From contig NZ_CP084472.1 in NCBI RefSeq assembly GCF_020405225.1, positions 2,852,001 to 2,916,000 on the forward strand: a stretch of 64,000 nt of DNA. The letters are read 5' to 3'. Position numbers and translations under genes: made by a program. Shown piece after piece: positions 8,917-11,557 of this stretch; positions within the stretch are counted from its first letter, which is position 1, and each line of letters starts with the position of its first letter. The stretch comes from Natrinema sp. DC36. GTDB lineage: Archaea; Halobacteriota; Halobacteria; Halobacteriales; Natrialbaceae. The notes under the pieces are model-generated. The model was not told where the DNA came from. It worked only from the letters and a program-made list of their open reading frames with translations, and ran no database searches.

Positions 8917-9042
8917 TGTTCTCGTGGTCGTATCCTCGGAACCCGCTTATTAAAACACTACTGTTCTAAGCAAATCTTCGCTCTCTCCGTCCAAACTGTA
9001 TATTCGTAAAGTTCTAAAGGCCTCACTGAGTGGGTAGATGTG
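8917..9042. promoter_or_regulatory. Divergent glnA/lrp promoter region
   Basis: The spacer is markedly AT-richer than its surroundings. On the minus strand TTTTAATAAG (8947-8956) lies ~30 bases before the glnA ATG. On the plus strand TGTATATTCG near 8998-9007 lies ~40 bases before lrp. The middle segment is the likely binding zone for the Lrp-type regulator. Confidence 0.5.
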
Positions 9043-9507
9043 ATGACGTACGAAAATCTCGACGCAAAACTAGTGAATTCACTCCTCGGCGACGGCCGAG
9101 CGAGCCTGCGAAGCCTCGCCGAAGAACTCGACGTCTCGGTGACGACCGTCTCGAATCACCTCTCCACGCTGGAAGACGAGGGCGTCATTCAGGGCTACAC
9201 CCCCCGCGTCGATTACGACGCGGCCGGGTTCGACGTGACTGCCGTTATCCAGTTACAGGTCGAGGGGAACGCGCTGCCCGACGTCACGGAAACGCTGCGC
9301 GACCACCGCCAGATGACCAGCGTCTACGAGGTCACCGGCGATTACGACGTGATCGCCATCGGCAAGTTCGAAGACACCGACGGCATGAACGAGCAGATCA
9401 AACAGCTGCTGACCGATCCCGATATCAAGGCCTCGAACACCAGCGTCGTCCTCAACGCCGTGAGCGAGAACGAGCAGTTCGACCTCGAGGTCGACGAGGA
9501 CGAGTAA
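9043..9507 (+). CDS. lrp: Lrp/AsnC-family transcriptional regulator
   Basis: A 154-residue Lrp/AsnC protein. The N-terminal helix-turn-helix spans residues ~5-55 ([40 protein letters not shown]). The C-terminal RAM/AsnC ligand-binding domain spans ~65-150 ([31 protein letters not shown]). The acidic tail EVDEDE is typical of haloarchaea. Two starts are possible, GTG at 9040 and ATG at 9043; the ATG is given. Its divergent position next to glnA makes glnA a likely target. Confidence 0.92.
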
Positions 9508-9611
9508 TCGGACGACTCTTTTCGGATACTATGTATCGCGAGCAGTGGCGACACCGATCAGACCACCGGAACGAACGATAGTTATTCCCTCAATCGGATG
9601 TCGGCGAGCGA

Positions 9612-9840
9612 GGGGTTCGAAGAACCCGAGCGACGCCGTTCGCCGAGCGCGTAGCGCTCGGGCCGACGACTGATGTGAGGCCCCGAAGGGGCCGAAACGG
9701 AAGGAGGAGTGCTTTTATACTAAATTTTGCCGAGGGCGCGGCGAAGCCGCGCCCGCAGAGCAAAGTTTAGGTCTACCTCGCGGGTCACTTCGTTCCCCGC
9801 TCGGTTTCGGAGGTTCTCGGCCTGCGGCCTCCGAACCTCC
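9612..9840. repeat. Cluster of five consecutive hairpins between lrp and the thermosome gene
   Basis: Five inverted repeats follow one another: GGGTTC/GAACCC (9613-9627), CGAGCGC/GCGCTCG (9644-9660), GGCCCC/GGGGCC (9679-9693), GGGCGCGGC/GCCGCGCCC (9734-9754), and a compound stem GGAGGTTC/GAACCTCC (9809-9840) that ends next to the thermosome stop codon. The first four have three-base loops (GAA, GTA, GAA, GAA). The fourth is nested in a longer near-perfect pair, CTAAATTTTGC (9720-9730) with GCAAAGTTTAG (9760-9770). No gene is seen. It may be a dispersed element, a terminator array for both convergent genes, or a structured RNA. Confidence 0.7.
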
Positions 9841-9841
9841 C

Positions 9842-11512
9842 TCACATCATGCCGCCCATGCCACCGCCCATGCCGCCCATGCCGCCGGGGGCACCACCGG
9901 GGCCGCCGGCCTCGTCGTCGCCCTTGTCGGTCGACAGATCGCCGGCGGAGATGATGTCGTCGATTTTGAGCACGAGGTTGGCCGCTTCGGCGGCGGAGGT
10001 GACCGCCTGCTCCTTGGCGTGAGCCGGTTCGACGACGCCTGCCTCGAACGTGTCCTCGACGTCGCCCGAGAAGACGTTCAGGCCGGCCGTAATCTGGCCG
10101 TCATCGTGGGCCGCACGCAGGTCGACCAGCGTGTCGATCGAGTCGAGGCCCGCGTTGCCGGCGAGGACGCGCGGGACGAGCTCGAGCGAGTCGGCGAAGG
10201 CCTCGACGGCCAGCTGCTCGCGGCCGGAGACGGAGTCGGCGAAGTCGCGCAGACGCGAGGCGAGTTCGACCTCGATGGCACCGCCGCCCGCGAGGACGCG
10301 GCCGTCGGAGACGGTCTGTGCGACGACGTCGAGCGCGTCGTTGACGCCGCGCTCGAGTTCGTCGACGACGTGGTCGGTCGAGCCGCGAAGGAGGAGGGTG
10401 ACGCCGTGGGCGTCCTCGCCCTCGACGTAGAACAGTTCGTCCTCGTCGTCGCGGGTGACGTCACCGAAGCCGAGGTCCTCGGTGGTCGCGCTCTCGAGGT
10501 CGGAGACGATCGACGCGCCGACGACCTCCTGCAGGAATTCCAGATCGCTCTTCTTGGCGCGGCGCACTGCGAGGATGCCCTCTTTGGCGAGGTAGTGCTG
10601 GGCGAGGTCGTCGATGCCCTTCTGGCAGAAGACGACGTCCGCGCCGAGGTCGACGATGTGCTGGACCTTGTCTTTCAGCTGTTTCTCCTCGCGGTCGAGG
10701 AATTTCTGGAGCTGGTCGGGGTCGGTGACGGAGACCTCGGTGTCGACGTCGGTCTCTTCGACCTCGATGGCCTCGTTCAGCAGCAGGATGTCCGCGTCCG
10801 TCGCCTCGGTGGGCATGTTGTCGTGGACGGGATCCTTGTCGATGATGCCGCCCTCGAGTAGCTCGGACTCGCCGGCGCTGCGGCCGGTCTGGGTCTCGAT
10901 GTTGAGGAACTCGAGGTCGACGACGTTGTTGCCCTCGTTGTCCTCGACGGTGACCTGTCGGATGGCCTCGACGATCAGCTGGGCGAGGTGCTCCTTGTTG
11001 ACCTCGGTACCCTTGCCGGTCATCGAGGTCTCGGCGGTCTTCCGGAGGAGGTCCTCGTCCGACGTGTCGATGTCGGTCGCGATGTCGTCGATCTCCTCGC
11101 GGGCCTGCTCGCTGGCGAGGTGGAAGCCCTTGATGATCGCCGTCGGGTGGATGTCCTGCTCGAGAAGGTCCTCGGCATTCTTGAGGAGTTCGCCAGCGAT
11201 CGCGACGGCCGTCGTGGTGCCGTCGCCAGCCTCGTCCTCCTGGGTCTCGGCGACCTCGATGATCATCTCGGCCGTCGGGTTGTCGATGTCCATCTCCTTG
11301 AGGATGGTGACGCCGTCGTTGGTGATCGTCACCGATCCCATGGAGTCGACGAGCATCTTGTCCATTCCTTTCGGACCGAGCGTGGACTGGACGGCTTCAG
11401 CGACCGCACGGGCGGCGCTGATGTTGTAATCCTGCGCGTCCTTGTCCTTGACGCGCTGGGAGTCCTCGCTCATTACGATCATCGGCTGACCCTGCTGCAT
11501 TCGCTGACTCAT
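9842..11512 (-). CDS. thsA: Thermosome (group II chaperonin) subunit
   Basis: A 556-residue group II chaperonin subunit that assembles into the double-ring ATP-driven protein-folding machine of archaea. Landmarks are LGPKGMDKMLVDSMG, the nucleotide motif GDGTTTAVAIAGELL and the late RVLAGGGAIEVELASRLRDF segment. The C-terminus is a flexible Gly/Met tail (GGMGGMGGGMGGMM), as in other haloarchaeal subunits. The start at 11512 (MSQRMQQGQP) is preferred over a frame extension to 11557 because it sits just after a strong TATA box. Several paralogous subunits (CCT1-3) occur in haloarchaea, and I cannot assign the number. Confidence 0.95.
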   Translation of the reverse strand: MSQRMQQGQPMIVMSEDSQRVKDKDAQDYNISAARAVAEAVQSTLGPKGMDKMLVDSMGSVTITNDGVTILKEMDIDNPTAEMIIEVAETQEDEAGDGTTTAVAIAGELLKNAEDLLEQDIHPTAIIKGFHLASEQAREEIDDIATDIDTSDEDLLRKTAETSMTGKGTEVNKEHLAQLIVEAIRQVTVEDNEGNNVVDLEFLNIETQTGRSAGESELLEGGIIDKDPVHDNMPTEATDADILLLNEAIEVEETDVDTEVSVTDPDQLQKFLDREEKQLKDKVQHIVDLGADVVFCQKGIDDLAQHYLAKEGILAVRRAKKSDLEFLQEVVGASIVSDLESATTEDLGFGDVTRDDEDELFYVEGEDAHGVTLLLRGSTDHVVDELERGVNDALDVVAQTVSDGRVLAGGGAIEVELASRLRDFADSVSGREQLAVEAFADSLELVPRVLAGNAGLDSIDTLVDLRAAHDDGQITAGLNVFSGDVEDTFEAGVVEPAHAKEQAVTSAAEAANLVLKIDDIISAGDLSTDKGDDEAGGPGGAPGGMGGMGGGMGGMM

Positions 11513-11538
11513 AGTCGAGCGGATGATTGTTTGTGATT

Positions 11539-11547
11539 CTATATAAG
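11539..11547 (-). promoter_or_regulatory. TATA box for the thermosome gene
   Basis: Read on the minus strand, CTTATATAG lies about 27-35 bases before the ATG at 11512, giving a very short leader. This is a strong consensus box, as expected for an abundant heat-shock protein. Confidence 0.65.
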
Positions 11548-11557
11548 TCTTTTCCAA

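Follow-up and report, generated by a model that had tools for sequence, protein, structure and literature searches.

A dispersed palindromic element with a covarying stem behind haloarchaeal genes: a candidate two-way transcription terminator or insulator

Five hairpins are packed into the gap between two convergent genes of Natrinema sp. DC36, an Lrp/AsnC-family regulator gene on the left (9040–9507, + strand; open reading frame with Pfam domains AsnC_trans_reg and HTH_24) and a thermosome gene whose 3’ end faces the gap (TCP-1/cpn60 chaperonin; 9842–11557, − strand; open reading frame, Pfam), raising the question of what kind of element occupies this junction and what it might do there. Positions are those of the window, i.e. 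the whole 64,000-nt stretch that was analysed. A preliminary description of this DNA held that such regularity is more than a terminator needs and proposed a composite repeat or a structured RNA. To our knowledge, what ends transcripts in archaea where convergent genes are tightly packed is little understood apart from T stretches and a cleavage factor, and a class-wide element with up to some 28 matches per genome would offer a sharp, testable set of sites for its study. Among the named-genome matches listed, the nearest relatives of the thermosome gene belong to Natrinema (95–96%).

Inspection of the sequence together with a stem search recovered all five hairpins, with GAA or GTA triloops in four, as the preliminary description had it. 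The left module (window copy 9600–9667, + strand) has an outer stem GTCGGC/GCCGAC around hairpin 1 (9613–9627; arms 9613–9618/9622–9627, loop GAA) plus hairpin 2 (9643–9661; a perfect 8-bp stem, 9643–9650/9654–9661, loop GTA), and is followed by the conserved linker GGGCCGACGACTGA (9660–9673, + strand), exact sites of which lie mostly beside cores. Hairpin 3 (9679–9693, + strand; arms 9679–9684/9688–9693, loop GAA) is a variable GC hairpin in the interval from linker to core. The core element, described by our covariance model R1 (9692–9771, + strand), reads on the + strand as a purine-rich tract (9692–9716) ending in GGAGTGCTTTT, an A/T-armed stem, a conserved internal loop and a GC upper stem. 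Its hairpin 4, rightly singled out before as a hairpin nested in a long AT-rich arm pair, has A/T arms at 9720–9730/9760–9770, with TTTT at 9725–9728, beneath a perfect 9-bp upper stem (9734–9742/9746–9754) closed by a GAA loop. An extra hairpin module (9772–9841, − strand) sits between core and thermosome stop codon (9842–9844, − strand); its hairpin 5 (9809–9816/9833–9840, inner stem 9819–9822/9826–9829, loop TGC, from the minimum-energy fold) has its last base at 9840, 1 nt short of the stop codon, and so does end at the thermosome stop as proposed. As RNA, a stretch of 251 nt folds at −135.5 kcal/mol on the + strand (z −5.95) and −127.2 kcal/mol on the − strand (z −5.20), and none of 200 shuffles was equally stable on either strand. 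Rfam gave no match to the element up to E 1 in window 9400–10000, where the sole weak match (narK, E 0.38, below the gathering score) falls inside the thermosome gene, and at the gathering score only SRP and tRNA were matched in 20 loci, with the element unmatched. A known RNA family was rejected, since the element is without an Rfam match at threshold.

The structure of the core, A/T arms beneath a GC stem, is strongly conserved as a pairing scheme. It comprises 20 pairs, with 96.8% of cells paired and 10 pairs altered on both sides, and 0 of 500 shuffles did as well for both; slid versions of the scheme were only 28–48% paired. Lack of conservation, which together with a lack of transcripts would have spoken against the earlier proposal, was looked for, and conservation was found instead. 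The TTTT of the 5’ arm is kept in 163 of the 166 distinct model-found copies, the AAAA of the 3’ arm, which reads TTTT in the sense direction of the abutting gene, in 158 of 166, and a further TTTT lies within 12 nt ahead of the arm in 159 of 166, while in 47 aligned cores both TTTT tracts are invariant and the adjacent arm bases vary with compensation; conservation of the T tracts is somewhat overstated by these counts because the copies are top-scoring ones, the 47 cores were picked by a pattern containing them (mismatches allowed) and R1 was built from pattern-found copies. A T run on the non-template strand downstream of the gene, as in archaeal T-stretch terminators, is present, in runs of four only. 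The internal loop was also considered as a kink-turn, a reading rejected because the copies do not preserve the G-A pair that it requires, core position 68 being A or C.

The core is also widely dispersed. R1 found at least 28 matches in the genome itself at E values up to 0.001 (150 of 3572 candidates scored), and the arm pair singled out in the preliminary description is the diagnostic core. BLAST with the gap sequence gave at least 22 places, the query among them; since this figure rests on 40 of 76 candidates scored, the covariance model was chosen for counting. With at most 16 candidates scored per genome, R1 matched in at least 169 of 292 sampled genomes of the class Halobacteria, from 52 of 77 genera, and gave no match in 123. 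Fourteen genomes, chosen from those already with matches, had 2 to 25 matches each at E up to 1e-6. A draw of 392 genomes from the phylum gave 47 with a match, every one of them from the same order, the share of the 392 that lies outside that order not being given. Within the genus, the repeat part of the gap matches many places beyond the orthologous gap; the 29 of 29 genus genomes matched by the whole query are not counted as repeat hits, as that query contained the ends of both genes. Titles and abstract beginnings among the literature matches listed for haloarchaeal palindromic repeats, PATEs, terminators, REPs and structured RNAs held no description of the element, which is apparently undescribed so far.

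Linker and core belong together. The linker GGGCCGACGACNGA has 25 sites without mismatch in the genome, and 24 of the 25 have a same-strand core to their right at a distance of at most 160 nt; the only exact site without a nearby core is L302 (G000:C1:547766). The element is a dispersed family with a covarying stem and a linked linker and core. To the left of the linker stands a hairpin of the CCGCGAGCGA...GAGCGAGCGG type, or the module seen in the window, or variants; many other copies carry the CCGCGAGCGA-type hairpin in place of the window's left module. The core measures about 80 nt, and the element with linker and hairpins 130–180 nt. An alignment of 74 rows (73 loci and the window, present twice) shows shared modules among the rows listed. 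At the thermosome-family stop codons of L041, L050 and L061 a module similar to hairpin 5 starts, followed in L061 by a core. Hairpin 5 is a separate module. The build is composite, a bipartite dispersed part, linker plus core, being joined by additional hairpin modules. Of the two earlier proposals, the composite repeat has thus stood up to genome search, conservation and covariation, and the structured RNA is borne out by half. A small two-hairpin module of the type GCGCGGCGC..GCGCCGCGAA...CGAACGG..CCGTGAGC, with variants, is inserted at differing positions within element copies (L160, L165, L170, L095, L102 and others). Other haloarchaeal genera have a distinct stem of similar kind, CCCACTTTTTGC...GCAAAAACTTGGG or a variant of it, at the thermosome-family stop codon in L004 and L022 and about 130 nt behind it in L015; this is perhaps a diverged relative.

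Where the element stands relative to genes was read from 86 copies at the 82 best-scoring loci, hence not a random draw, with genes called by a home-made codon-usage caller and not taken from annotation; 34 of 120 model matches had been excluded, and apart from two separate weak matches in L230 these were lower-scoring hits to a palindrome already matched on its other strand. Of the 86 copies, 57 have an end −4 to +6 nt away from a called stop codon, always the same end and in the same orientation, where random placement in the same gaps predicts 3.0 (over the 72 copies with such a gene). None of the 86 has a called start codon within −4 to +6 nt, nor does a stop codon lie within that distance of any left end. 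A gene on the opposite strand lies at the right end of 72 of 86 copies, i.e. the element is behind that gene and its + strand is antisense to it; 45 of these 72 junctions are convergent, 26 are tandem in that orientation and one is without a called left gene. Convergent junctions account for 45 of the 80 copies with both neighbours called, versus 12 of 44 junctions in the window. Junctions of 80 nt or more elsewhere in these loci and in the window are convergent in 9 of 95 cases, a figure that is biased low, as two adjacent junctions cannot both be convergent. A further set of copies, from five genomes and overlapping the first in part, has 47 of 66 within the same distance of a stop codon; the stretches fetched for it cover part of the matches. 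Some convergent gaps (L203, L220, L234 and further pairs) hold two opposite-facing elements, one behind each gene. The element also follows SRP RNA, 5 nt behind it in L165 of the DC36 genome (RNA end 1495, element start 1501) and 9 nt behind it in L194 (RNA end 1491, element start 1501). In L193, L195 and L208, where it lies between a gene and the start of the next, the right flank is conserved and, from its reading frame, would be the start of a ribosomal S8e-like gene. Away from stop codons are 29 of the 86 copies, the window's own and an amplified subfamily among them. In L236 (1325–1500), a second copy of the 3’ end of the neighbouring tRNA-Lys (gene 1325–1399) adjoins the element, resembling an attachment-site duplication.

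The genes that carry the element in this genome, identified by Pfam, include thermosome, ribosomal L10e, DP2 of DNA polymerase D, eIF1A and a TFIIS-like factor, furthermore a purF-like amidotransferase, an EngB-like GTPase, a TbsP-like regulator, an AsnC-like protein and a diphosphomevalonate decarboxylase-like protein, and finally acyl-CoA dehydrogenase, TrkH, DUF502, HD-domain and FAD proteins and one protein without a Pfam match. Many of these genes are shared. Taking genes at most 25 nt from an element (at most 75 nt for the 17 of the own genome, G000, and for three of G019), BLASTP matched 9 of 11 stop-abutting genes of G268, from another genus of the same family, to one of the 17 carriers in G000, against a chance expectation that we estimate at below 0.1 for about 4,000 genes. 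Within the genus, 9 of 12 genes of G019 match such carriers; outside the family the figures are 2 of 18 (G115), 1 of 8 (G120) and 0 of 5 (G045).

While the position is kept, the sequence is not. Out of 30 lrp-thermosome loci of the genus, eight were without an lrp match, and of the 22 gaps one (G003) was wrongly anchored and dropped. A core is present in 17 of the 21 usable gaps, one of them with an insert in the upper stem; in one further gap it is split by an insertion, in one it is truncated, and two are without it. The arm types at this one site include CTAAATTTT, CGAAATTTT, CGAATTTTT and CCAGGTTTT. Between G000 and G021 the aligned gene ends are 95.7% (lrp, 207 nt) and 97.5% (thermosome, 355 nt) identical, and the gaps measure 334 versus 196 nt and differ in their modules. 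The repeat stays at its genes, but its sequence changes more quickly than the genes beside it; copies are kept at many of the same genes, and sequence is probably exchanged between them. The hairpin 5 module occurs in 5 of the 21 gaps. The window copy stands 71 nt from the stop codon because this extra module intervenes, a distance that looks like the outcome of a later insertion.

How, then, might an element so placed act? We consider it a haloarchaeal 3’-boundary element, most likely a two-way transcription terminator or insulator, and give this reading about even chances. The A/T arms carry TTTT on both strands, on the − strand as the complement of AAAA, and the + strand has an additional TTTT ahead of the core. 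Transcripts of the abutting gene would end just past its stop codon, and those coming from the other side, from a convergent neighbour or in antisense, would end before entering the gene. We favor this reading because of the one-sided stop-codon spacing, the SRP RNA adjacency, the shared genes and the T tracts on both strands. A terminator, which the preliminary description implied to be excluded, is the role we regard as likeliest. The T runs of four are short, 29 of 86 copies are off stop codons, 123 of the 292 class genomes are without a match and gene sharing drops in other families, all of which counts against a terminator. For Haloferax, one study (PMC7237163) gives termination values of 95% with T5C and 59% with one hairpin. 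The Haloferax terminators described there (T stretch, AGATC, hairpin) resemble our element in having T runs and a hairpin behind genes, but the element has a specific conserved sequence and structure, is found at a minority of genes and carries its T runs inside stem arms and on both strands. A more particular version appears unlikely to us. In this version, the element would represent a dedicated class of one-sided insulators. A structured RNA of the + strand would stop antisense or convergent transcripts precisely where the stop codon or the SRP RNA end lies, at the same genes across genera, and the element would be multiplied and homogenised through copying from site to site, with no transposase of its own.

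Equally doubtful in our view is a mobile palindromic repeat of the REP or PATE kind that spreads but is tolerated behind genes alone; its place would then be a matter of tolerance rather than function. Such mobility would fit the 28 matches in the genome, the hairpin modules nested in one another and the amplified subfamily. The latter, with CAACATTTT arms, comprises five copies in the genome (L166, L167, L168, L169 and L171, at about 1430–1590 in each; 88.6–97.6% identical over 147–214 bp), one of them on contig C2 and none at stop codons, and is an amplification. A sixth copy (L183:1529–1582) is 84–86% identical and has its between-arms hairpin inverted as a block (98–100% opposite-strand match over 54 bp). 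A target duplication was rejected for this subfamily, as by eye it is inconsistent across copies. Read as a multi-copy sRNA with the element at its end, the L166 group shows right flanks alike in some copies only and by eye no consistent promoter. In the lrp-thermosome gap of L101 (G015), the core is split by an insertion of more than 1 kb that resembles an insertion sequence, which would likewise suit mobile DNA. Haloquadratum, according to PMC3119063, is rich in transposase-free palindromic repeats, PATEs and SMRs, which like our element are short and nest in each other. PATEs are described there as having palindromes near both ends and as related to IS605-type transposons; going by this description the element is set apart by its conservation at gene 3’ ends and by the lack of a Y1 gene in its own genome, where Y1 transposase (PF01797) gave 0 matches at E 0.001 in a search whose control was positive in 5 of 14 known genomes. 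A parent IS200-type transposase was rejected, none having been found in this genome. With bacterial REPs and BIMEs, as portrayed in PMC3733652 and PMC12306157, the element shares dispersed palindromes, compensatory stem changes between subfamilies, composite arrays and an extragenic position behind genes, mainly at convergent and tandem junctions (here 72 of 86 copies) and often at most 20 nt from the stop codon. Unlike these, it is bipartite with an 80-nt core and a fixed orientation to the abutting gene, and has at most tens of matches per genome, across Halobacteria, with no Y1/RAYT transposase found in its own genome. As to a terminal tag, no GTAG was seen by eye in the aligned cores, and on the minus strand the linker has a CGTC at a distance of three bases from the stem of the left hairpin. 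The CGTC REP families, which reportedly are also without a dedicated transposase, are described with another stem, loop and tail. The main text of PMC12306157 has no words starting with ‘halo’ or ‘natrinema’, nor has PMC3733652 any starting with ‘halo’ or ‘natr’. A neutral mobile repeat does not readily explain the single orientation, the −4 to +6 nt spacing of 57 of 86 copies or the 9 of 11 genes common to another genus, and the missing Y1 transposase speaks against it as well.

Quite improbable is a 3’-UTR element in the mRNA of the abutting gene that sets stability or translation, an idea that draws on housekeeping carriers such as L10e, eIF1A, TFIIS-like factor, DP2 and thermosome, and on a spacing, like that of some E. 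coli REPs, within the class of up to 15 nt from a stop codon that PMC12306157 cites as stalling ribosomes. SRP RNA genes, which have no stop codon, carry the element too, so that a purely translational role is insufficient and termination is favored over a translation-coupled one. The strand asymmetry also counts against a 3’-UTR function. Wobble pairs read on the + strand of the element, antisense to the gene, are 25 G-T versus 6 A-C (166 distinct but related and thus non-independent copies), and so fit the strand opposite to the mRNA. A redundancy filter left 149 of the 162 elements, and RNA folding is better on the + strand in 147 of these versus 50 of 98 control gaps; after correction by shuffling, with z-scores on 70 of the 162, the bias is modest (z −3.68 versus −3.05; 48 of 70 copies), and since the shuffles trace it mostly to base composition, we take the folding asymmetry as weak support.

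A role at the DNA level, with a cruciform or a hairpin in one strand taking up supercoiling between convergent genes or serving as the binding site of a chromosome protein, is very unlikely despite the convergent bias, the dominance of GNA triloops or their complements and, by our reading, tandem G-A mismatches on one strand of the left hairpin, for topology needs neither a fixed orientation nor close spacing to one gene. GNA triloops form very stable DNA minihairpins, and the apical loops, being mostly 3-nt GNA or TNC loops and not tetraloops, give a hint of constraint on the DNA. Counting triloop hairpins whose stem is perfect and 6 bp or longer, GNA/TNC loops make up 9 of 58 in the whole window (four of the nine being hairpins 1–4) and 201 of 256 in 162 pattern-found elements. 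Where the fetched loci (L080 on) are intergenic and free of the element the figure is 58 of 86, against 45 of 418 for called coding DNA; loops of this kind are common in haloarchaeal intergenic hairpins generally. GNA stands to TNC as 128:26 in hairpins left of the core (stems of at least 5 bp, among the 16 loop types listed) and as 56:50 at the core apex.
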